The notes under the pieces are model-generated. The model was not told the origin of the DNA. It did no database searches and saw only the letters and a list, made by a program, of their open reading frames with translations. Position numbers and translations under genes: made by a program. This document shows, one piece after another, positions 770 through 28,729 of a stretch of 28,796 bases of DNA (the stretch's first letter is position 1; every line of letters begins with the position of its first letter). Source of the DNA: Ectocarpus siliculosus (lineage: Eukaryota; Sar; Phaeophyceae; Ectocarpales; Ectocarpaceae); contig FN649748.1 of the NCBI GenBank assembly GCA_000310025.1, positions 2,443,529-2,472,324 on the forward strand, written 5' to 3'.

Positions 770-1108
770 TCATCTGCAGAACAGAAAATACTGTTGAAAC
801 GGAACTCCTGTGATGGCAGGTAATCTTCTCCCTGAATGATGGCTGAGCACCGATTTTTCCAAAATCGCGGGTAACGTCAACACCAATGGCATGGCTCTCG
901 CCATCCACCCAACCGTTGGGCAAACGCGATGAACTCTGAGCTGACGGGGAAACGTATCGTCCGAAGAAACGACCTTCCGAAGAAGAACACTGCCATGCAC
1001 AAAGAACATGACCGAAGCATACCTGACAGGCATGGCAACAGGCACGCTGTAGTTCCACGAACGCCACCCTGCCTTCTGGACCAAGAACATGAGGCTCCAG
1101 AACCCGAA
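770..1108 (-). CDS. Candidate 3'-terminal exon(s) of exon-array gene, unit A
   Basis: A strong polypyrimidine tract ending TACCAG at 1109 marks an acceptor, and CAG|GTATGC (donor at 1022) a donor, giving an 86-bp exon 1023-1108. In phase 0 it reads FGFWSLMFLVQKAGWRSWN and on to AMPV. A second acceptor (TTCTGTTCTGCAG, ending at 774) would join it to A|TGA, so the protein ends AMPVR. The 249-bp intron is open in the same frame and reaches the same stop (TGA at 770-772), so it can be retained without a frameshift. The phase match to the upstream exons is the main reason to assign this to the exon-array gene. No family recognised. Confidence 0.4.
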   Translation of the reverse strand, partial: FGFWSLMFLVQKAGWRSWNYSVPVAMPVRYASVMFFVHGSVLLRKVVSSDDTFPRQLRVHRVCPTVGWMARAMPLVLTLPAILEKSVLSHHSGRRLPAITGVPFQQYFLFCR

Positions 1109-1559: not shown

Positions 1560-1781
1560 GTGCTTCTTGTCGTCCGCAACGTCCACTATCGAAGCCTGCT
1601 CGGCTTCCCACTCGCGCACGATGCGGTGCAGTTGGGATACCTGCCGGACCATGTTAGTCTCGGCCAGAAAAGCGCGATCGACCATCTGGGTGAGGTCGAC
1701 GGGGGTCACGGACGACAAGGTCGCCACCACGCATGCTCCAGGCTCGTCGCACAAGGGCATGGGACTCGCCTCGTCGATTGC
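1560..1781 (-). CDS. Exon-array gene: internal phase-0 exon, 74 codons (unit A)
   Basis: The exon lies between acceptor GTGCTACAG (before 1781) and donor CAC|GTGAGAG (after 1560). It is 222 bp, phase 0 at both ends. The product starts AIDEASPMPLCDEPGAC, continues VVATLSSVTPVDL and a helical stretch (QMVDRAFLAETN, LHRIVREWEAEQ), and ends DDKKH. It is clearly paralogous to the B exon at 12316-12549 and, in its first half, to 13660-13821, sharing the core EPGAC.VA.LS. In this unit it is the only internal exon left. Its upstream partner exon is truncated at 2042, so it is probably not expressed as in unit B. The family is not recognised. Confidence 0.55.
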
Positions 1782-1895: not shown

Positions 1896-2321
1896 CAGAC
1901 ACAGGATTTGCGCCACGGCACTCTGTGGTTTTCCCTCTAGCCAAGAGCTTCCAACAAGCGGCACAGCTGCCGATTGTGGGGCAACTCCGGTGGGGACATG
2001 TGGGCAACGAAGAAATGTACATTGCCCAGCCACTAAAGCCGCAGCATCCCGTGGCCCTTGAAGGCGTCCGCAAAAGGCAGCAGCGTGATAGCCACCAGTA
2101 GAAGCAGCATCGGCCACGCCGGAAACCACCTCATTATTCTCTCGCCTGTGTAGGGCATGAAAGCGGTAGGAGGCGCGGCTTTAGTGGCTGGGCAATGTAC
2201 ATTTCTTCGTTGCCCACATGTCCCCACCGGAGTTGCCCCACAATCGGCAGCTATGCTGCTTGTTGGAAGCTCTTGGCTAGAGGGAAAACCACAGAGTGCC
2301 GTGGCGCAAATCCTGTGTCTG
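1896..2321. repeat. 147-bp inverted repeat enclosing the signal-peptide exon (unit A)
   Basis: Arm 1896-2042 is the reverse complement of 2175-2321 with only 2 mismatches in 147 bases; the 132-bp spacer contains the signal-peptide coding sequence. Arm 2 is the normal 5' flank of the exon, as in unit B at about 15790-15936. Arm 1 is an inverted extra copy replacing the rest of the exon. The junction falls in GCCGCAGCAT, shared with the exon sequence of unit B, which suggests a microhomology or snap-back event. Any transcript through the block could fold into a long hairpin. Confidence 0.9.
2033..2158 (-). pseudogene. Truncated signal-peptide exon of exon-array gene (unit A)
   Basis: This is a 41-codon ORF from ATG 2156-2158, with an alternative in-frame ATG at 2132-2134. 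It has an N-terminal hydrophobic segment (PMLLLLVAITLLPFADA) typical of a signal peptide with an AxA-like cleavage site. The unit B counterpart continues for another 50 codons. Here the sequence diverges after GMLR and stops at TAG (2033-2035) exactly where the inverted 5' flank begins. No splice donor is visible before the break. It is a truncated exon or at best a secreted micropeptide. Confidence 0.65.
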
Positions 2322-10228: not shown

Positions 10229-11047
10229 TCATCTCCCTCTCCCTCTCCCACCGGCTTCTTCTCCTTCTTTGCCTTGCCCCCGCGTTTTTTCCTCCTGGCC
10301 TTCCTGCCCTTCCCCCCCCCCCTCCTCCTCTTGCGGCGGCCCTGAGGGTTGGCCGCCCGCCTCCTCCTTCTGCTCCCCCTCCTGCTGGGACGGCCCCGAG
10401 AGATTTCCGCCCGCCTCCTCCTCGCGCCCGTCGTCGTCGCCACCCCCGCCTGCCTTGGGTAGCTGCTTGCCGACCTTCCAATGGGCGAAGTGTGAGCCTA
10501 GTTCGGACTCTTTGCCCCACACCCTGGCGGACTCCTCCGCCCTCTCGTTCATCTTGTGCAGGACTTTCGTCAACTGGCGGTCAGGCAAGTTCTTGCTCTG
10601 GACATTCAAGAGGCCAGCTCCGAGGGCGTCCGCGTTGTTCTTGAGGTCGTTGAGCTTTGCCGTGAGGCCCTCCTGGATGTCCTGGATGTCCTGCTGCACC
10701 GTTGCCATCTCGTCAGCCAGCTTGGCTTGCCCCATTTCGAGCTGGCTCTGGAAGACGAGCTTCATCTTCTCCTCTGACGCGGTGATGGCGGCGGCGGTGG
10801 CGATCTCGGCCTCAGTCTGCCACCTCGCCCTCTCCTCCTCGAGCTGGCTCTGGAAGACGAGCTGCATCTTCTTTTCCATCTTCTCCCCTGACGCGGCGAT
10901 GGCGGCGGCGGTGGCAATATCGGCCTCAGTCTGCCACCTCCTCCTCTCCTCCTCGTGGTTGGACACAGCTCCGGCGAACAGCCGCGAACGCCGGCAGAGG
11001 GTCATCACCAGCCAGCAGCAGCTCAGCCCGCTGCACAGCGCCGTCAT
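10229..11047 (-). CDS. Coiled-coil protein, unit B copy, 272 aa
   Basis: The reading frame is intact from an ATG at 11045-11047. The order is: hydrophobic N-terminus (about 3-18) with basic flank; two coiled-coil repeats (32-69 and 70-103); a helical segment (104-198) with VLHKMNERAEESARVWGKE; then a low-complexity Gly/Glu/Asp/Lys tail. Relative to the unit C copy, one extra base next to a run of 11 C's near 10311-10322 shifts the frame of the tail. This copy therefore ends GGRGRGR, while the alternative frame (down to 10168) would give the KKEKKPVGEGEG tail and the end FSAGT seen in unit C. Either this copy carries a frameshift or the homopolymer is miscalled. The 312-bp segment holding a stop in unit C is missing here, leaving the frame open. 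Function is unknown. Confidence 0.6.
   Translation of the reverse strand: MTALCSGLSCCWLVMTLCRRSRLFAGAVSNHEEERRRWQTEADIATAAAIAASGEKMEKKMQLVFQSQLEEERARWQTEAEIATAAAITASEEKMKLVFQSQLEMGQAKLADEMATVQQDIQDIQEGLTAKLNDLKNNADALGAGLLNVQSKNLPDRQLTKVLHKMNERAEESARVWGKESELGSHFAHWKVGKQLPKAGGGGDDDGREEEAGGNLSGPSQQEGEQKEEAGGQPSGPPQEEEGGGEGQEGQEEKTRGQGKEGEEAGGRGRGR
10739..10954 (-). repeat. Intragenic coiled-coil repeats, 2 units
   Basis: Same arrangement as in unit A: one 102-bp and one 114-bp unit, both in frame within the coiled-coil gene. Confidence 0.85.
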
Positions 11048-11073
11048 CGACCAGTCCCTGGATCAGCCGTCAT
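11044..11073 (-). promoter_or_regulatory. uORF overlapping the coiled-coil start codon (unit B)
   Basis: Identical 9-codon uORF ending in the ATGA overlap with the main start. Confidence 0.4.
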
Positions 11074-11304: not shown

Positions 11305-11643
11305 TCATCTGCAGAACAGAAAATACTGTTGAAACGGAACTCCTGTGATGGCAGGTAATCTTCTCCCTGAATGATGGCTGAGCACCGATTTTTCCAAAAT
11401 CGCGGGTAACGTCAACACCAATGGCATGGCTCTCGCCATCCACCCAACCGTTGGGCAAACGCGATGAACTCTGAGCTGACGGGGAAACGTATCGTCCGAA
11501 GAAACGACCTTCCGAAGAAGAACACTGCCATGCACAAAGAACATGACCGAAGCATACCTGACAGGCATGGCAACAGGCACGCTGTAGTTCCACGAACGCC
11601 ACCCTGCCTTCTGGACTAAGAACATGAGGCTCCAGAACCCGAA
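11305..11643 (-). CDS. Candidate 3'-terminal exon(s) of exon-array gene, unit B
   Basis: Same structure as in unit A: 86-bp exon 11558-11643 between a pyrimidine-rich acceptor and a CAG|GTATGC donor, a 249-bp in-frame intron, and a stop at 11305-11307. It is the first plausible exon downstream of the array exon at 12316-12549, although the assembly gap lies between them. Confidence 0.4.
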   Translation of the reverse strand, partial: FGFWSLMFLVQKAGWRSWNYSVPVAMPVRYASVMFFVHGSVLLRKVVSSDDTFPRQLRVHRVCPTVGWMARAMPLVLTLPAILEKSVLSHHSGRRLPAITGVPFQQYFLFCR

Positions 11644-11745
11644 CTGGTATAAAAAAAGGGTGGGGTCGGAGGGGCAGGGAGGGGAAGGGTTAGCTGAGCG
11701 AAAACGCTGCAAAGGAGTGGTGCAGTCCTCGTCTGTCTCTGTCAC

Positions 11746-12315
11746 GAGACGATGCGTGAGTACGTGTTCGACAGCAGTGAGTGCCGGATATGGGCAACGT
11801 CAACCATGTTTACCATGCTCCAGGAATGTCGCCAAGTGCCCCCCCCCCCCCGCCCACCTACCCCAGCCGTTTAAAAAACTGGATATCGCCCCCCAACGAT
11901 ACTTCTCCCCAACCGCTTAAAAGAATCCCCCAAGGGGGGGCGGGGTAAAAAAACCTAGTTATGACCCTCACGNNNNNNNNNNNNNNNNNNNNNNNNNNNN
12001 NNNNNNNNNNNNNNNNNNNNNNNNNNNNNNNNNNNNNNNNNNNNNNNNNNNNNNNNNNNNNNNNNNNNNNNNCGTCTGTTTTTGTCACGAGACGATGCGG
12101 GAGTACGTTTTCGACACCAGTGAGTCCCGGATATGGGCAACCTCACCCATGTTTCCCATGCCCCAGGAAGGTCCCCAAGTGCCCCCCCCCCCCACGCCCA
12201 CCTACCCCAGCCGTTTAAGACACTGGATATCGCCCCCGATCGATACTTCTCCCGAACCGCTGAAAGGAATCGCCGAGGGGGGGGCGGGGTACAAGACGCT
12301 AGTTATGACTCTCAC
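11746..12315. other. Presumed intron with assembly gap (unit B)
   Basis: No gene seen. It contains poly-C runs (about 11837 and 12183), the gap, and two near-copies of the same intron sequence. Both copies carry GTGAGGGTC or GTGAGAGTC on the minus strand, that is, donors of array exons. Confidence 0.5.
11973..12072. other. Assembly gap (100 N)
   Basis: Exactly 100 N, the usual placeholder for a gap of unknown size. The 245 bases left of it (11728-11972) and right of it (12073-12316) are near-duplicates, both ending at the CAC/GTGAG donor of an array exon. Confidence 0.98.
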
Positions 12316-12549
12316 GTGCTGCGTGCTGTTGCGACCGGCGAAACAGACCATCGAGAGGTCCCAGTCGCGCAACATGCGTTGCGTCTGCGACACTCTGATG
12401 AGCTGCTGGAGGGCCGCCCGGCCAGTCTCCGCCAGCAGAGCTCGTTGAACCATCTGGACGAGGTCCAGGGGCTTCATCAACGACAAGCTCGCCACTGCAC
12501 ACGCCCCAGGCTCGTTGCACAAGGGCATGGGACTCGTCTGCTCTATTTC
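12316..12549 (-). CDS. Exon-array gene: phase-0 exon, 78 codons
   Basis: The exon is bounded by acceptor GTGCTACAG and donor CAC|GTGAGAG, the same splice contexts as 1560-1781. It is 234 bp, phase 0/0. The product starts EIEQTSPMPLCNEPGAC, continues AVASLSLMKPLDLVQMVQ and a helical tail (LQQLIRVSQTQRMLRDW), and ends RNSTQH. The core is shared with units A and C and with 13660-13821. About 150 bases of the upstream intron are also similar between these exons, so exon plus intron end moved as one cassette. Confidence 0.55.
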
Positions 12550-12818
12550 CTGTAGCACGTGACGGCATCGGGGGAACATAGCGAATGGGGGTGTGAGAGC
12601 AATAAACACAGGCCACTCGTGTCAACCATATCTCATCATTCACTAGCAGCAGCAGCAGCAGTAGCATGAGCAGCATGGGCAGCATCAATAGCGTAAGCGG
12701 GAGATTTCCGCAAAGTAAACGCCACAGCGAATCAAATCGATAGGTGTGCGACACATGAGCTGCTGGCAGTACACACATATTTGACAACAACAACAATATA
12801 CAAAAAGCGCTTGCTCAC

Positions 12819-12935
12819 CGCCACGCCCAAGAACGGGGGCCATACGCACAAGGCGCCACCGTCATCGAAGGGTGCCATGGTAGCCGGCGAGGTCGGGTGG
12901 CGAGCGGTGCCGACGCTTGCAGGTTCCAGGTCCTG
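12819..12935 (-). CDS. Exon-array gene: phase-0 exon, 39 codons
   Basis: Acceptor GTCTGCAACAG (before 12935) and donor GCG|GTGAGC (after 12819) give a 117-bp phase-0 exon. It reads QDLEPASVGTARHPTSPAT, then MAPFDDGGALCVWPPFLGVA. A paralogous but inverted copy (VGTTRHLTLPAT, then WPPFPGF) lies on the plus strand at about 14209-14313. Confidence 0.5.
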
Positions 12936-13659
12936 CTGTTGCAGACAGACATAGCATAGTAGGTAGGTGCGTGCACCGTCATGGGGGGAGAGGGGTAGAC
13001 TATGTGAGCCAACACTGTTTCGTCGGTGTCACTCATAGCTAGCCGATCATTCGTGAGACACTTGGCAGCAGCACCACCTGCATGAGCACCGGCAGCGTCG
13101 GGAAATGTCTGCAACGCACCGCATTTGAATCGATTCATACCAATCAAGGTGTCTGGCACATATGTGCGTTGTTTTCGTCCCGTTTATTATGGCGACAGTC
13201 CCCCATTTTTCATGGTGAGACGTGTACTACTCTTTTCAGTGTGTGTACCGTACTACACATATTTTCGTACAACTACAACCATCCAGGGCCACACAGGAGG
13301 GGGTAAACACAAGGGCTCTTTTCTTCTTTTCATGTATTTTCGTGCTCCACCTTTCTCCTGCGGTGCGGGCTGAAATATATTTTTATCGCGAGAAGGGTCC
13401 AGCCGTCCCTTTCCCTCGTCAACGGTGCTAACTAACGTCGAAGTTTGGTACTCACAAGAGCTTTTCCACCTGTATTTCGCTTTCACCTGCAAATGTTGTA
13501 CATGTTTTCACCCCAAGGGGATTCAAACTCACGACCATTACGACTAACGGTTTTCGGGTACCACAATAACGGACCACCGGGGCGACCATATACAACAGAA
13601 AAAAATATTTGGAGCAAACACGTTTCACAAGATAGAAAAAAAACATTTCCCACGCTTAC
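12936..13659. other. Presumed intron region between array exons (unit B)
   Basis: No gene supported. Holds a block on the minus strand around 12990-13070 (GACACCGACGAAACAGTG and neighbours) that resembles the intron ends upstream of the 13.8-kb and 12.5-kb exons, so cassette remnants are present. The rest is T- and A-rich. Confidence 0.4.
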
Positions 13660-13821
13660 CGGAAAGCCCAAGGACGGAGACCAAGGGCACGATGGAACAT
13701 GATCCACGCGGAATGCGGCCACGTCGAGCGGTGCCACAGACGACAAGGTCGCAACCGCGCACGCTCCAGGCTCCTGACAAACGGGCGTGCCGTCTGTCAC
13801 AACAACGGTCTCGTCCACAAC
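13660..13821 (-). CDS. Exon-array gene: phase-0 exon, 54 codons
   Basis: Acceptor CGTGCTGCAG (before 13821) and donor CCG|GTAAGC (after 13660) give a 162-bp phase-0 exon. It begins VVDETVVVTDGTPVCQEPGAC, continues AVATLSSVAPLDVAAF and ends PWSPSLGFP. The first half matches the EPGAC exons at 12316-12549 and 1560-1781. The second half matches the W.P..G..P exons at 12819-12935 and 14997-15098. It therefore looks like a hybrid of the two exon types. Confidence 0.55.
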
Positions 13822-13933
13822 CTGCAGCACGTTACGGGAAGTGTGTTTGTGGGCGGGGGGTAGCGAAGGGGGTGTAAGACGGACAAGACTGTTTTGACCG
13901 TGTCAGGCATAGCTGATGATTCATCAGACGCGT

Positions 13934-13963
13934 GGCAGCAGCAGCAGCAGCAGCAGCAGCAGA
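13934..13963 (+). repeat. (CAG)n microsatellite
   Basis: About nine CAG units. On the minus strand this is a CTG run in the intron upstream of the 13.8-kb exon. Shorter runs occupy the same relative place upstream of the 12.5-kb and 12.9-kb exons, so it is part of the duplicated cassette. Confidence 0.85.
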
Positions 13964-14040
13964 AATCGTTTGTAAAGCACCACATTGAACCGATTCATCA
14001 TGTGTGGCAAACGTGCAAGAGACAAAAGAGCATATTTTCC

Positions 14041-14371
14041 AAACGGAGCACTGCCGCCGTTGGCAAAAAAAGATTTAAAAAAACAAAACGGCAAGCCCAA
14101 GAACGGATGCCAAATGCACGATGAAAGAATGCCGCTACGTCCGTGGTGGACGTCGCGGAAGCCGGCAGGGTCGCGTGGGGTGTGGCACCGAGCTTGAAAC
14201 TTCGAAGGGTCGGCACCACTCGCCACCTGACCCTGCCGGCTACCGCGGTGTCCACAACGGACGTAGCGACGATCTTCCATCGCATTTGGCCTCCGTTCCC
14301 GGGCTTCAGAGGTGTTTTTTTTTTCGTTGTTGTGAAATCTTATTGTTGCCAACAGCAGCAGTGTTCCGTTT
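14041..14371. repeat. Palindrome carrying head-to-head array-exon copies
   Basis: Sequence 14041-14200 is an inverted copy of 14208-14371 at roughly 80 percent, centred on CTTCGAAG at about 14203, with essentially no spacer. Each arm carries an exon-like segment: minus strand TLPASATSTTDVAAFFHRAF, plus strand TLPATAVSTTDVATIFHRI followed by WPPFPGF. Both relate to the exon at 12819-12935. The minus-strand arm has lost a good donor and acceptor; the plus-strand arm keeps a possible donor near 14314. These are probably decayed cassettes left by a fold-back rearrangement. Confidence 0.75.
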
Positions 14372-14408
14372 GGGAAAAAGTATTTCAGCTCTCGTACCCG
14401 TCGCTTAA

Positions 14409-14685
14409 GAAACCACACAGCAGTGCTCTCGTTGCTGAACTGTTCCCTCGTCCGCCTTACTCGAAAAAATCTGTTCGCAACGCTTCGCCGATTTGACCAC
14501 GTGCTCCGCTTTCATGACTGCTCCTCTCATTCTCCCTCACCACGAGCACGCACCTACCTACCTATATCTGTCGTCTGCAACAGCTGGACCCCACGCGGTC
14601 AAATCGGCCAAGTGTTGCGGACACTTGTTCGAGTAAGGCGGACAAGGGAGCAGTTCAGCAAAACGAGACCACTTCTGTGTGGTTC
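14409..14685. repeat. Second inverted repeat, about 93-bp arms
   Basis: Arm 14409-14503 matches the reverse complement of 14594-14685 at about 85 percent (GCTGAACTG..CC.T.GTCCGCCTTACTCGAA). The 90-bp spacer holds a plus-strand copy of an array intron end (ACCTACCTAC...CTGCAACAG at about 14561-14586), that is, an inverted cassette fragment. Confidence 0.7.
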
Positions 14686-14692
14686 GGTATAC

Positions 14693-14811
14693 TGTAGGGG
14701 TGCGATATGCAACCGATCGTAACGTGCATGCCACAAATCAGCAACGGCGTACGCCATTTCTAGCCCAAAAGGGACTATCAACATGAGAACCATGGCCATG
14801 CACACACGCAT
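14693..14811 (-). CDS. Possible alternative first exon with signal peptide
   Basis: An ATG at 14809-14811 opens a peptide beginning MRVCMAMVLMLIVPFGLEM, then AYAVADLWHARYDR. This is a credible signal peptide resembling the one at 15.75 kb in its overall pattern (MR..., hydrophobic core, A.A). A donor GTATAC follows at 14692, but the phase would be 2, unlike the phase-0 array exons. This could be an independent first exon, a decayed duplicate, or chance. Confidence 0.3.
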
Positions 14812-14996
14812 CAGCTCTGCCTCATCAATCTGCTACACATTGGCGACCGCACTTTGGCAAAAAATGCAGCAACACTTTTGATCCCCGCTCGGGACGCGCT
14901 ACACTCAGGAAACTCCAGGAAATTCAACGTGCAAAACGCTCCAACCACACAAGACGCTGCCAGCGCAATACCACCATTACAAGATGTCGATCGTAC

Positions 14997-15098
14997 CGGC
15001 CAATCGCCGAAGACCACCGGAGACCAGTGCACGGCTTCCGGCACGATTGGTTCGGGAGGCGCTTCCACCGCCATCGCCGCTCGGGAGCGGACGACACG
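14997..15098 (-). CDS. Exon-array gene: phase-0 exon, 34 codons
   Basis: The exon is bounded by an excellent acceptor (C-rich tract ending CCCGGCAG) and donor CCG|GTACGA. At 102 bp it is phase 0/0 and reads RVVRSRAAMAVEAPPEP followed by IVPEAVHWSPVVFGDWP. The ending W.P..G..P just before the donor recurs in the exons at 12819-12935 (VWPPFLGVA) and 13660-13821 (WSPSLGFP), suggesting a common origin of the 3' halves. It is the first candidate exon after the signal-peptide exon. Confidence 0.5.
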
Positions 15099-15498
15099 CT
15101 GCCGGGAGCCGGGGCGGCGGGGCGGGAAAAGTGTGCACAAATAGGCGCGAGAAGAACAACTGGATGTGGCAGTCGAACGGATCGCTGGTGCTTTGATACA
15201 AAGCACGGCCATGGGGTTGGGCCCTTTGGCTTGAAATCACAGCGGTGTTGATGTATTGTGGTGGTACTCAAAACGCACCTTCTTTTTCCGCATGCCGGAG
15301 ACTCTCCCGAAAGTATAACGCAGGTAAAAACCTCAGGGAGAAAAGATGAGAAACACTTGTCATCCATGCCGCCCCCTCCCCACGCAGAGGCGTTCAACCA
15401 CATGAAATACCAGTTTCCTCGCTCCGTATCAATTTTCGAACCCGCCATTCCCCCCCTTTGCCAATCGATAATGACGTGCGTGTGCATATTTGTAGTAC

Positions 15499-15771
15499 CT
15501 CCAAAACCGGCTCTTTTTCAGGCTGGGTTGCCGTCCAAAACACCTCGGGGGCGGGCTCTGCGGTGCTCTCCTCGAGGATCACCCGGACATCGATGTCGTT
15601 AACGATGATCCGCAGCGCGGCGGGGATGCCCTTGACTACGGTCTTGGCTCGCCGCAGCATCTCCTGGCCCTTGAAGGCGTCCGCCAAAGGCAGCAGCGTG
15701 ATAGCCACCAGTAGAAGCAGCATCGGCCACGCCGGAAACCACCTCATTATTCTCTCGCCTGTGTAGGGCAT
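15499..15771 (-). CDS. Exon-array gene: first exon with signal peptide, 91 codons (unit B)
   Basis: ATG at 15769-15771 (MPYTGERI) with a second in-frame ATG at 15745-15747 (MRWFPAWP); the second gives the more classical signal peptide, with hydrophobic core PMLLLLVAITLLPLADA. The rest of the exon is soluble and helical/strand-like (LRRAKTVVKG, LRIIVNDIDVRVILEE) and ends QPEKEPVLE. Donor GAG|GTACTA at 15498 leaves phase 0, matching every candidate exon downstream. The product is likely secreted or enters the ER. The longer upstream extension of the frame (to 16011) is promoter sequence by comparison with unit A. No domain family recognised. Confidence 0.6.
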
Positions 15772-18191: not shown

Positions 18192-19478
18192 TGATACGAT
18201 GTACGATCTTGCAACCAATGCAAAAACGCAATCAGCAAACATAGAAAAACACCCCTTGAGAAAACTTATTCAACAAAACTGGCTACGCATCCAACACAAA
18301 GCGTCTCCATCAGTTTATTCACGAATCCAAAGCGTTCGTCTCTGGAAATAATCTCAAACCGTTGACACAAAAGAATCATCCTCAGAAAAGTACCCAACAA
18401 TTATTTGTGCTACATCAGAAAGGCGTCGGAACGAAAACGGACATTTCTGGAAAAAAAACAACTTCCAAAAGAGTTGGCACCAAATCCTCAAACAAAACAA
18501 AAACTCAACTTCTTGACCAATCAAAACGAGAATTCGGAAAGCACAATGGCCCCAACCATTAATCGTCAAAACATGTCAAACCCTTCCTCCAATACAGTGT
18601 CCGAGGACCAAATCCTAAACAGCGCGCACCCGCTAATCGGTACCGTCGCTGTTGTCCAAGAAACGATAGAAAATGTAAGCAAGCATCCACGCAAACAGCC
18701 CTCCTGCTGTCAGCTCCCAAAATTCACCCCGAGCTAATATCTCGATGTCAACAGTCCCCCCTGCTTTGCCGTTCACCTAAAACACAAATAGACAAGGCCA
18801 GAAAACGAACCAATTCGATTGCTGCTCACGCCCTCTAGAATCATGGTCATACATGACATCCCCCCCCATGATTTTCGATGCAAGAGCAGCAAAACATGCG
18901 ATACAAACCAAAAACATGAAAACACGTTACACTCATGGCATCAAACTCCGGAAAAATTCGTACCGTATGAAAACTGTATTTGCAACTAGAACTCCAAAAG
19001 CTACCCTGCTCCCTGAGCCACATGCCTTCACGCACGTCAAGCAACGCGCTATCATCCCATTTCTTGCGCGCGGCCAAAAACACACCGCAGAGAGCGACCG
19101 CTTAACTCAGGACCTAACATAAAAAAACAAACAAACCAAAAGTATCGAAACACCCTAAGCGCAAAACGCGACTGAACGTACTCCCGCCAAAGAATAGGGA
19201 AATAATATGAAGCATTCAGCTGCAAGGTAAAACGCGACTGAAAACATACGAAGAACCAAGGAAGAAAAAAAAAAAAAAATACCTACGTGCTGCTTTCTAT
19301 TCCACAGGTTGTGGCAATGCTTATCTTGTCGCAGCGTACATTTATTATCATGAAACCAAGTACAGAAAAAAAAAACATGGCGAAGCTAAAACGTCCATGC
19401 CTGCTCACAATACCGAACAAAGTCGTAAACGTTTCACATGATTTCCCACTTGGCTGTAACAAGGTGAGGTCGTCGCTG
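18192..19478. other. Internal non-coding part of LTR element
   Basis: AT-richer than the surroundings, with A-runs and a 14-bp direct repeat (AAAACGCGACTGAA at 19163 and 19229). A plus-strand 110-codon ORF (18405-18737) is antisense to the proposed element and has no recognisable domain. Confidence 0.5.
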
Positions 19479-20057
19479 TCACCGTGTCCTCCCCGTTCCC
19501 GGTCGACTCGAGGGCGCCACCGCTGCTGCCGCCGCTGTCATCGCCGCCGTTGCCGTTCCCCCGCCGCCACGACCGCCATGAGTTCCAGCGCCAACACGGC
19601 TGCCGGTAACGTCGCTGCTGCCGCCTCTACCACCGCCGCCGTTGTCGCCGCTGCCGCCGACGGGGCTCTGGCCAAAACCGCCGCTGCCGTCTTCTGCTGC
19701 CGTCGGAGCTCTGGCCGAAGCCACCACTCTCGTCGCTGCTCCTGCTGCCGCCGGTGTCGCCGCCGGAGCTCTGGCCGAAGCCACCACTCCCGTCGGGGCA
19801 GCCGCCGTTGCCGCCGTCGGAGCTGCCACTCCCGTTCCTGCCCCTATCGAAGGGGTACGCCACCCCTGGTACCGCCCCCCGTCTCCTCCACCCCTATAAT
19901 ACCCCGACGCATACCCAGCGCCATCCACCATATCTCTAGTATCATCCCCCGCTGAAATGCGCTCCTCTGCCTGCTCAAGTTTCCTCCGTAACTCCGCATT
20001 CTCGGCTTCCGCTTTCTTCATTCCTTCTTCAAACTCTCTCTTCTCTCTTTCCGTCAT
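19479..20057 (-). CDS. Gag-like ORF of LTR element, 192 aa
   Basis: The ATG at 20055-20057 lies 43 bases inside the 5' LTR. Residues about 1-34 are strongly coiled-coil (TEREKREFEEGMKKAEAEN, ELRRKLEQAEERI). After a Gly/Tyr-rich stretch (GYYRGGGDGGRYQGW) the rest is Ala/Gly-rich low complexity. The motif GGFGQS occurs once in this frame and twice, as GGFGQSS, in another minus frame at about 19700-19830, so the repeat tract has probably been read in a different frame before two compensating shifts. No zinc knuckle. The position suggests a Gag or a packaging/assembly protein, but homology is not established. Confidence 0.45.
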   Translation of the reverse strand: MTEREKREFEEGMKKAEAENAELRRKLEQAEERISAGDDTRDMVDGAGYASGYYRGGGDGGRYQGWRTPSIGAGTGVAAPTAATAAAPTGVVASARAPAATPAAAGAATRVVASARAPTAAEDGSGGFGQSPVGGSGDNGGGGRGGSSDVTGSRVGAGTHGGRGGGGTATAAMTAAAAAVAPSSRPGTGRTR

Positions 20058-20100
20058 CGCTGTACCAACACCTGGCCTAGGTAGGCTCCACTCGATATCG

Positions 20101-20434
20101 TGTTAGTGCACTGCCGCCCTCAGCGGTCTGTGGTGTTGAGACTGGGGACTATGTTATCCCAGGAACAGCTGATAAAAAAGGACCATGCATTGTATATATT
20201 CATCACGCAAGCCCCTCAGGCAAGCTGGTATTCGACACGCAAGCCCCTCAGGCAAGCTGGTATTCAACACGCAAGCCCCTCAGGCAAGTGCCGGGAGCAC
20301 ACCGCTGTGTGCTCCCGGGGGCCCCGCACTTGGACCACAAACGCATACATACATACCCTCACACCCATACTTCCCATACGCGTATCCCCCACAGAGGATG
20401 CGCAGATCGGACTCATATCCAAGTACCACAAACA
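20101..20434 (-). repeat. 5' LTR (minus orientation), 334 bp
   Basis: Same ends, followed by GGGTA. A TATA-like AATATATACA on the minus strand (20200-20191) lies about 90 bases before the LTR/internal border, consistent with an R-U5 segment of normal size and transcription into the internal ORF. Confidence 0.9.
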
Positions 20435-26072: not shown

Positions 26073-27377
26073 CTAGGTGCCCGCGGAGAAGCCCTGTCCC
26101 CCCTCCCCTCCCCCGGACATCCCGTCACTGCTGTCATCTCCCTCTCCCTCTCCCACCGGCTTCTTTTCCTTCTTTGCCTTGACCCCGCGTTTTCCCCTCC
26201 TGGTCTTCCTGCGCTCCCCCCCCCCCTCCTCCTCTTGCGGCGGCCCTGAGGGTTGGCCGCCCGCCTCCTCCTTCTGCTCCCCCTCCTGCTGGGACGGCCC
26301 CGAGAGGTTTCCGCCCGCCTCCTCCTCGCGCCCGTCGTCGTCGCCACCCCCGCCTGCCTTGGGTAGCTGCTTGCCGACCTTCCAATGGGCGAAGTGTGGG
26401 CCTAGCTCGGACTCTTTGCCCCACACCCTGGCGGACTCCTCCGCCCTCTCGTTCATCTTGTGCAGGACTTTCGGCAACTGGCGGTCAGCCAAGGTCTTGT
26501 TCTGGACCTTCAAGAGGCCAGCTCCGAGGGCGTCCGCGTTGTTCTTGAGGTCGTTGAGCTTGGCCGTGAGACCCTCCTGGATGTCCTGGATCTCCTGCTG
26601 CACTGTTGCCATCTCGTCAGCCAGCTTGACTTGCCCCATTTCGAGCTGTTCGGTGCCGAGGCGGAATATCTCGTCCATCACCGCCTTCTCCATGGCAGTA
26701 GGCATGTCGGCAGCTTGCTTCTTCAGCTGGAGGACGCCTGCGCGGAGGGAGGCGATGGTGGAAGGCGTGTCACCAAGCTCGTGCTCCACGCGACCGAGAA
26801 GCCTGGCCTCAACGCCGTCGAGCATATTTTTTCACTTGCCGTCCTTGGTCTCCCTGTTGTCCTGGACCATCTTCCCGATGGCCAGAACCGCCTCCTTTCG
26901 GGAGTCCGCGATGACGCTCTCGAACAACTGCTTGGCCTTTCCCCTCTCCTCGTCGAGCTGGCTCTGGAAGACGAGCTTCATCTTCTCCTCTGACGCGGCG
27001 ATGGCGGCGGCGGTGGCAATATCGGCCTCAGTCTGCCACCTCCTCCTCTCCTCCTCGAGCTGGCTCTGGAAGACCAGCTGCATCTTCTTTTCCATCTTCT
27101 TCCCGGACGCGGCGGCGGCGGCGGTGGTGGCGATCTCGGCCTCAGTCTGACACCTCCCCATCTCCTCCTCGAGCTGGCTCTGGAGGACGAGCTTGATCTT
27201 GTCCTCCATCTTCTTCCCTGACGCGACGACGGCGGCGGCGGTGGCAATCATGGCCTCTCGCTGCCACCTCCTCCTCTCCTCCTCGTGGTTGGACACAGCT
27301 CCGGCGAACAGCCGCAAACGTCGGCAGAGGGTCATCACCAGCCAGCAGCAGCTCAGCCCGCCGCACAGCGCCGTCAT
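26073..27377 (-). pseudogene. Coiled-coil protein, unit C copy, interrupted by an in-frame TGA
   Basis: Two stretches in the same frame, 27377-26835 (181 codons) and 26825-26073 (250 codons), are separated by one TGA at 26832-26834. The first part has the hydrophobic N-terminus and three coiled-coil repeats (residues about 32-69, 70-107, 108-141), one more than in units A and B. The sequence on both sides of the stop (GKMVQDNRETK before, MLDGVEARLLGRVEHEL after) is equally coding-like and helical, so this looks like one gene broken by a point mutation. It ends in a Lys-rich then Gly/Glu/Asp-rich tail (KAKKEKKPVGEGEGDDSSDG). A second start at the MLD codon (26823-26825) or stop readthrough cannot be excluded. 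Confidence 0.6.
26955..27284 (-). repeat. Intragenic coiled-coil repeats, 3 units (102 + 114 + 114 bp)
   Basis: The marker GAGCTGGCTCTGG or a close variant starts at 26955, 27057 and 27171, giving three in-frame units. The third is the most divergent (QREAMIATAAAVVASGKKM). Units A and B have two. Confidence 0.85.
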
Positions 27378-27631: not shown

Positions 27632-27970
27632 TCATCTGCAGAACAGAAAATACTGTTGAAACGGAACTCCCGTGATGGCAGGTAATCTTCTCCCTGAATG
27701 ATGGCTGAGCACCAATTTTTCCAAAATCGCGGGTAACGTCAACACCAATGGCATGGCTCTCGCCATCCACCCAACCGTTAGGCAAACGCGATGAACTCTG
27801 AGCTGACGGGGAAACGTATCGTCCGAAGAAACGATCTTCCGAAGGAGAACACTGCCATGCACAAAGAACATGACCGAAGCATACCTGACAGGCATGGCAG
27901 CAGGCACGCTGTAGTTCCACGAACGCCACCCTGCCTTCTGGACCAAGAACATGAGGCTCCAGAACCCGAA
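27632..27970 (-). CDS. Candidate 3'-terminal exon(s) of exon-array gene, unit C
   Basis: Copy of the same block: exon 27885-27970, donor CAG|GTATGC, stop at 27632-27634. It differs from unit A by about 2 percent, more than A differs from B here. Confidence 0.4.
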   Translation of the reverse strand, partial: FGFWSLMFLVQKAGWRSWNYSVPAAMPVRYASVMFFVHGSVLLRKIVSSDDTFPRQLRVHRVCLTVGWMARAMPLVLTLPAILEKLVLSHHSGRRLPAITGVPFQQYFLFCR

Positions 27971-28393: not shown

Positions 28394-28615
28394 GTGCTTC
28401 TTGTCGTCCGCAACGTCCACTATCGAAGCCTGCTCGGCTTCCCACTCGCGCACGATGCGGTGCAGTTGGGATACCTGCCGGACCATGTTAGTCTCGGCCA
28501 GAAAAGCGCGATCGACCATCTGGGTGAGGTCGACGGGGGTCACGGACGACAAGGTCGCCACCACGCACGCTCCAGGCTCGTCGCACAAGGGCATGGGACT
28601 CGCCTCGTCGATTGC
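28394..28615 (-). CDS. Exon-array gene: internal phase-0 exon, 74 codons (unit C)
   Basis: Near-identical to 1560-1781 with the same acceptor, donor, length and phase; offset 26834. As in unit A it is followed upstream (to the right) by an inverted copy of the 5' flank, which the window end cuts. Confidence 0.55.
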
Positions 28616-28729
28616 CTGTAGCACGCAATGGGAAGGTGAAGCAGCGGGCGAACATGGCGAAGGCGGTGTAAGAGAGCAAAACAATGGGTAGTCCGCGCCA
28701 ACCATCGTTGATCACCCACGAGAAACTGG

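Follow-up and report, generated by a model that had tools for sequence, protein, structure and literature searches.

A 28,796-nucleotide stretch of the genome of the brown alga Ectocarpus siliculosus (contig FN649748.1, here C23, positions 2443529-2472324, in an assembly of 189 Mb and 492 contigs; termed the window) is built of large repeats, and its units A, B and C carry related genes on the minus strand. On balance, the unit B gene is best read as a member of a brown-algal gene family whose products are predicted to cross the membrane once, with an ectodomain composed of phase-0 cassette exons that would be exchanged through introns. In the proposed order, a signal peptide would be followed by the cassette-exon ectodomain, a short linker (exon E6), a transmembrane (TM) segment, a long cytoplasmic helix and a charged tail. 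The anatomy of the exons, their conserved phases and splice sites, the constraint on the EPGAC exon and the mosaic make-up of the genes can be read from the sequence, from which we infer the splicing as given below, a type I membrane orientation, and the placement of the helical part inside.

Exon structure of the unit B gene

An earlier note on this DNA had taken five segments of unit B for an exon coding for a signal peptide and a series of phase-0 exons after it, in part duplicated in tandem, and this was borne out. All five are open, have lengths divisible by three and are closed by a GT, and AG stands before each of the four internal segments. On the minus strand, E1 (15499..15771, 273 nt) encodes the initiating Met and the signal peptide, with 59 residues beyond a cleavage site assigned by eye, and ends in phase 0 at the donor GAG/GTACTA. 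E2 (14997..15098, 102 nt, phase 0) has seven copies in the genome. E3 (13660..13821, 162 nt, phase 0-0) is a short exon of the type named after its EPGAC motif, with a terminal W.P..G.P motif. E4 (12819..12935, 117 nt, phase 0-0) is a W-type cassette (CVWPPFLGVA) with relatives at two other loci of contig C23, L014 and L017. E5 (12316..12549, 234 nt, phase 0-0) is a full EPGAC exon with the donor CAC/GTGAG. A further W-type cassette fragment (14089..14126, minus), recognized by blastn matches to E3 and E4, is dead, lacking a GT at its end, and is adjoined by an inverted copy (14190-14244, plus strand).

The array is not the end of the gene, as E6 and the exon from 11057 continue in frame. E6 (11558..11643, minus, 86 nt) runs from phase 0 to phase 2 (FGFWSLMFLVQKAGWRSWNYSVPVAMPV) and is 97.7-98.8% identical between gene types. 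The last exon, E7 (10229..11057, minus), encodes a TM-like segment, a long helix and a charged tail, and contains the stop codon. The E6-E7 junction reads ...MPV-R-DWSMTALC..., and the spliced E1-E7 model of 620 residues is free of stops in the copies at L007 and L012. For the window copy and for L011 the model has 600 residues, with a C-terminal frame differing from that of L007, while the readings of L005 and L009 run into N and into a contig end, respectively. A run of 100 N (11973..12072) lies in the E5-E6 intron, between flanks that are 88.5% alike over 244 nt. As this intron is about twice as long in the window (672 nt) as in L007 (328 nt), it was probably doubled by a scaffold join at 11973-12072.

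The five segments might also be random open segments in GC-rich DNA, belonging to no gene. The same stretch holds 350 open AG..GT segments of suitable length (100-280 nt, divisible by three) on the minus strand and 178 on the plus strand, with good splice sites in 10 and 3 of them, respectively. Because such segments are common here by chance, the case for exons rests on conservation. Diverged loci hold the same exon with in-phase splice sites and a synonymous excess, and six exons join in frame with the last exon to give 620 residues, so that a chance origin is highly improbable.

Mosaic genes and exchange of cassettes

A readable E1 occurs at ten places, belonging to seven B-type genes (window unit B, L005, L007, L009, L010, L011 and L012), which share one set of five exons in one order, to two A-type genes (window unit A and L008) and to one D-type gene (L014). 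Seven copies of E1 are full, two are cut at nt 121, and one, that of L014, is diverged. The D-type gene (C23:2012500-2018500) contains a signal-peptide exon, a W cassette, an A-type EPGAC exon, E6 and a helix exon.

Identities between one copy of each type (L007 for B, L008 for A, L014 for D) change partners along the gene; the helix exon enters this comparison through its start and its end, its middle having unequal numbers of repeats in A and B. The 5' 600 nt are 97.2% identical between B and A, against 64.7% for B-D and 63.5% for A-D. In the EPGAC exon it is A and D that agree (99.1%, against 64.9% for B-A and 65.8% for B-D), as they do in its 5' flank (97.5%, against 64.2% for B-A and 63.3% for B-D). 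The 190 nt before E6 are 90.1% (B-A), 89.5% (B-D) and 96.9% (A-D) identical, and from there on all three types are close, with identities, in the same order of pairs, of 98.8, 97.7 and 98.8% in E6; 98.6, 99.0 and 98.3% in the E6-helix intron; 98.0, 100.0 and 97.8% at the start of the helix exon; and 96.4, 97.3 and 94.9% at its end and beyond. Homology of B with A and of B with D resumes at one same point between E5 and E6 (L007:4526), and for A with D the point lies some 120 nt upstream of the EPGAC exon.

Two hallmarks of exon shuffling are present: the same exon is found in differing gene contexts (A, B and D) with breakpoints in introns, and symmetric 0-0 phases are found in E2-E5, the L014 W exon and the EPGAC exons of loci L001 and L002. 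No single tree was seen to fit the A/B/D identities; exchange does explain them. These identities, together with the intron breakpoints, support exchange of cassettes between paralogs, and carry the exon shuffling proposed earlier beyond its original evidence. Some cassettes would have arisen when an exon and the intron flank 5' of it were duplicated in tandem. Tandem paralogs that undergo unequal exchange or convert one another, with intronic breakpoints, could swap, add or drop a cassette and still keep the frame, since each cassette is phase 0-0 and the exons on either side join it in phase 0.

Kinship among cassettes was scored against 300 dinucleotide shuffles. At the exon level, E3, E5 and the unit A exon are mutually related (0/300 for each pair), with E3 aligning to the full EPGAC domain minus its middle; E4 is related to the unit A exon (1/300), and E3 to E4 weakly (12/300). 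The modules noted earlier as shared among the internal exons were thus found in E3, E5 and the unit A exon, weakly between E3 and E4, and were not shown for E2, for which kinship to the other exons stayed at chance level (best 10/300 with E3, and 15/300 with E1) and flank matches were absent. In the 200 nt of 5' intron flank, E3, E4 and E5 are mutually related, and E3 and E5 are also related to unit A (0/300 each), although these flanks hold CTG runs that dinucleotide shuffles do not fully control. The proposal that intron ends were duplicated with their exons therefore holds for E3, E4 and E5; it was not confirmed for E2. In the downstream 150 nt, E1-E5 (2/300) is the sole pair at or under 15/300. 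Sharing of the W module by E2 gained no support from the shuffle test.

Conservation among copies and across loci

Frame and splice dinucleotides hold in 34 of the 35 B-type exon copies, the remaining one (L009 E5) being cut by the contig end. Among the B copies, no gap interval falls in 888 exon columns and 24 fall in 2620 intron columns, a contrast with a P of about 0.001 by hand if gaps are evenly spread, but the introns hold simple repeats. Exons show 23 variable sites over 888 positions, and the remaining sequence 165 over 2937, in a count that placed E6 one or two bases off and in which the outside figure is swollen by simple repeats.

More distant EPGAC exons on contigs C484 and C27 are 38-42% identical to E5, and are readable with a preceding AG and, as in E5, a GTGAG donor and phase 0. 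One C27 exon holds the domain twice (L002 4064-4465, minus). Non-synonymous and synonymous divergences (dN/dS) of the EPGAC exon are 0.055/0.168 for C484 versus C27 (78 codons), 0.328/0.662 for E5 versus A (71 codons), 0.44/1.69 for A versus C484 (67 codons) and 0.125/0.266, about 0.5, for the two repeats in C27 (46 codons); for E5 versus C484, dS is saturated. With dN/dS of about 0.3-0.5, the sequences indicate that the EPGAC exon is constrained across loci.

The signal-peptide exon of L014 has 67% DNA identity to E1 and ends in phase 0 at the donor GAG/GTAAGT. The W-type cassette of L014 (135 nt, phase 0-0) has 59.8% DNA identity to E4, and gives dN/dS of 0.725/1.952 against E3 (45 codons). 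Two W cassettes (6634-6566 and 5893-5819, minus) were found at L017 (C23:2059000-2068900), the first of which occupies, by eye, the place of the signal-peptide exon; alongside them lies an E2-related stretch of 106 nt with stops. L003 and L004 contain a related TM-helix exon, and part of their 5' region is related to B. L001 contains a 301-residue open frame (3-905, plus) with a likeness to the end of a copia-type polyprotein.

Predicted membrane segment, helix and targeting

The earlier note had seen the design expected of a secreted protein. The product is probably not simply secreted, since its reading frame continues into a TM-like segment and a long helix. Hydropathy, used in place of a trained predictor, gives windows of 2.05 and 1.57 and a third window of 1.5, with RRSR after the TM segment. 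The TM-like segment scores 1.57 over 19 residues in L007 and 2.15-2.48 in L001, L003 and L004, and basic residues stand after it in the last exon. From an alignment of only two sequences, this exon is predicted to form a single 153-residue helix (residues 2-154) followed by a disordered tail, with a predicted local distance difference test score (pLDDT) of 84-96 by blocks over residues 41-150.

N-glycosylation sequons are few overall, with none in E4 of B. The L007 protein has NST and NYS, involving two of the four Asn residues of the predicted ectodomain, and one of eight Asn residues after residue 365 lies in a sequon. NVT is found in the W cassette of L014, and NRT and NDT in the W cassettes of L017. 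These sequons fit a lumenal side for the predicted ectodomain. The residue after the putative cleavage site fits another destination equally well. The product might be targeted to the plastid or its surrounding membranes by a bipartite signal, as in red-lineage secondary plastids, with the helix working there. Phe occupies +1 when the site is placed by eye (ADA/FKGQGMLRRAKTVVKG in B, VDA/FEGKPGLLGRATTLL in L014) and is kept at 67% DNA identity, and the stretch after the signal peptide is mostly basic in B, less so in L014. In the available portion of one report, a Phe at +1 is described as frequent and as crucial to plastid import, on diatom data and with cryptophytes and dinoflagellates named; its text on this residue does not mention Ectocarpus (PMC4329603). 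Phe is among the residues (F, W, Y or L) that the +1 rule of that report allows. Few hydroxylated residues (Ser/Thr) follow the cleavage site, however, L014 has Glu at +2, and sequons lie in the predicted ectodomain, so that plastid targeting appears somewhat doubtful.

Units A and C, and decay as an alternative

The signal-peptide exon of unit A (2038..2158, minus) breaks off after 121 of 273 nt, where the frame runs straight into a stop. An inverted repeat (1896..2321, arms 1896-2042 and 2175-2321, 147 nt, 99% identical and 132 nt apart) sits at this break, and may be a trace of the event by which the A-type gene was disrupted. Unit A retains a single EPGAC exon (1560..1781, minus, phase 0-0) and an E6 equivalent (1023..1108, minus; 98.8% over 85 nt, ends carried over from unit B). 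Unit C contains an EPGAC exon (28394..28615, minus), an E6 equivalent (27885..27970, minus; 97.6% over 85 nt, ends likewise carried over) and a longer TM/helix exon (26073..27377, minus). That units A and C each keep one such exon, as had been noted, is correct for A, with its signal-peptide exon broken; C cannot be judged, because an N gap that starts at the window end (L013) hides the rest of it.

At a distance of 26,834 nt from each other, the A-type exons at 1570-1810 and 28404-28644 frame a B-type gene, forming a higher-order A+B tandem unit, and A and B types adjoin on contig C264 too. Around 18240-19980, unit B has about 2.3 kb absent from unit A, as seen from the distance between repeats, which rises from 13.6 to 15.9 kb. 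A 207-residue open reading frame in this extra segment (19479-20102, minus) has no Pfam match at the cut-off.

Several observations weigh against a functional, exchanging family. The 23 exon changes among the B copies comprise 7 synonymous and 16 non-synonymous changes, with no clear departure from neutral. Cassette content is identical in the seven B copies, as far as readable, and there is therefore no sign of the free system of any order or subset that had been claimed. The A-type 5' breakpoint is an exception to the placement of breakpoints in introns, cutting the signal-peptide exon at nt 121 so that the frame stops; in unit A, no GT lies between signal peptide and stop, the only GTs being inside the signal peptide, and A-type genes have no usable first exon. 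A TGA (26832-26834, minus) splits the unit C helix exon into two long open halves, one extra base is present in E6 of L010, the L014 helix exon stops after 158 residues, and the L017 gene looks broken, with its remainder hidden by an N gap. The TM segment of the B protein scores modestly. Outside the EPGAC exon, dN/dS is higher: the helix exons evolve faster, at ~0.8-0.9 (0.271/0.314 for L001-L002 and 0.363/0.464 for L003-L004), and values of ~0.6 (0.397/0.657, 81 codons) and ~0.8 (0.496/0.603, 39 codons) were obtained for the L014 signal-peptide exon versus E1 and the L014 W cassette versus E4. Neither hydropathy nor third-position bias between the two loci revealed a convincing first exon in L001 or L002, and no E1, E5 or E6 was recovered from L003 or L004.

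Many of these observations would be expected of a recently amplified, mostly decaying orphan gene, in which the copies stem from segmental and unequal duplication, E2-E4 are leftovers of exon duplication still open by chance and the mosaics reflect neutral turnover of the array without an adaptive role. Near-neutral change in the B exons is consistent with this, as are the lack of the domain middle in E3 and of the EPGAC start in E4, the dead cassette fragment, the broken A-type first exon, the broken L017, and a window composed of large repeats. Gaps are confined to introns, however, five exons remain in frame in seven copies (one exon cut), and the EPGAC exon is constrained across loci. Decay is possible, then, without being the probable account, and a family of membrane proteins with exchanged cassettes is the reading retained here.

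Comparison with known systems

Nine window products (seven of this gene and two other open reading frames), the 620-residue spliced model and five diverged products were searched against Pfam, and none matched at the cut-off. The strongest hit was HMG_box_5 to the helix half of unit C (E 0.0053, 17.1 bits, cut-off 25), followed, also below cut-off, by EAD10 and Ribosomal_L30, each at E 0.027 with the L002 EPGAC exon, and by TOC159_MAD at E 0.03. Four products compared with NCBIfam gave a best E of 0.028, far under the cut-off. In the PDB, a profile of four sequences returned a single match (E 0.63), and a fold search with the EPGAC exon returned none, from a query model of mean pLDDT 66.8. Among viral contigs, 82 pattern matches were found and none was confirmed. 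No mobile-element or virus domain was seen among the products scanned with Pfam, the rest of the repeat unit being outside that scan. As stated earlier, the cassettes do not resemble LRR or TPR, neither model being among the Pfam matches listed up to E 1. The suggestion that the family may be undescribed also stands: no described family was found, no curated cut-off was reached, and no such family appears in literature titles or abstract starts among the matches listed, from a search with most subscription journals uncovered. As a separate observation, PF19114, the EsV-1-7 domain, is matched at least 150 times in this genome (880 candidates, of which 150 were scored and all match) and not at all in 14 control genomes. 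The available text of one source describes the EsV-1-7 family as expanded in brown algae, and the domain as patchy in other groups and present in viruses (PMC7457493).

Having its own cassettes along with a signal peptide and a TM-like segment, this family would extend brown-algal exon shuffling to proteins facing the outside or a lumen. It would also provide a compact cluster of genes whose cassette exchange through introns is readable from multi-strain long-read assemblies. The architecture, in which the ectodomain changes while the membrane and helical part stays constant, invites the guess of a role in surface recognition or adhesion. It is tempting to go further and speculate that this is a brown-algal cell-surface recognition family unrelated to LRR/TPR receptors, with an ectodomain reassorted in the germ line by intronic recombination between tandem genes of one chromosome, the same exchange keeping the membrane-helix part uniform; so complete a picture is, at present, quite unlikely.

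In the symmetric-exon modular surface proteins of animals, exons of one phase are exchanged through introns, as a rule in phase 1-1 and with known domains. The present genes are like these in their symmetric exons, and differ in being phase 0-0 and in containing no known domain. Closer at hand are the ROCO (LRR-ROC-COR) genes of brown algae, in which, according to the available portion of one study, exon shuffling involves 72-bp phase-2 exons encoding one LRR each, with positively selected sites in the repeats and known splice variants (PMC11378527). That text proposes exon-shuffled ROCO and NB-TPR genes of brown algae as candidate immune receptors (PMC11378527). With ROCO as so described, the present family shares a brown-algal host, repeated symmetric exons within the gene and domain content that varies between genes. 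Unlike in ROCO, the exons here are 102-234 nt long and in phase 0, there is no LRR or ROC-COR match in Pfam and a signal peptide and a TM-like segment are present instead. Whole-exon dN is below dS in the EPGAC pairs tested, and change is near-neutral among the B copies. With NB-TPR genes, for which that same text proposes the immune role, the likeness lies in the repeated exons; no NB-ARC or TPR model is among the Pfam matches listed here. We call this a different gene family from ROCO, of another phase and with a signal peptide and a TM-like segment, that follows the same shuffling principle and is less dynamic than the earlier note proposed.

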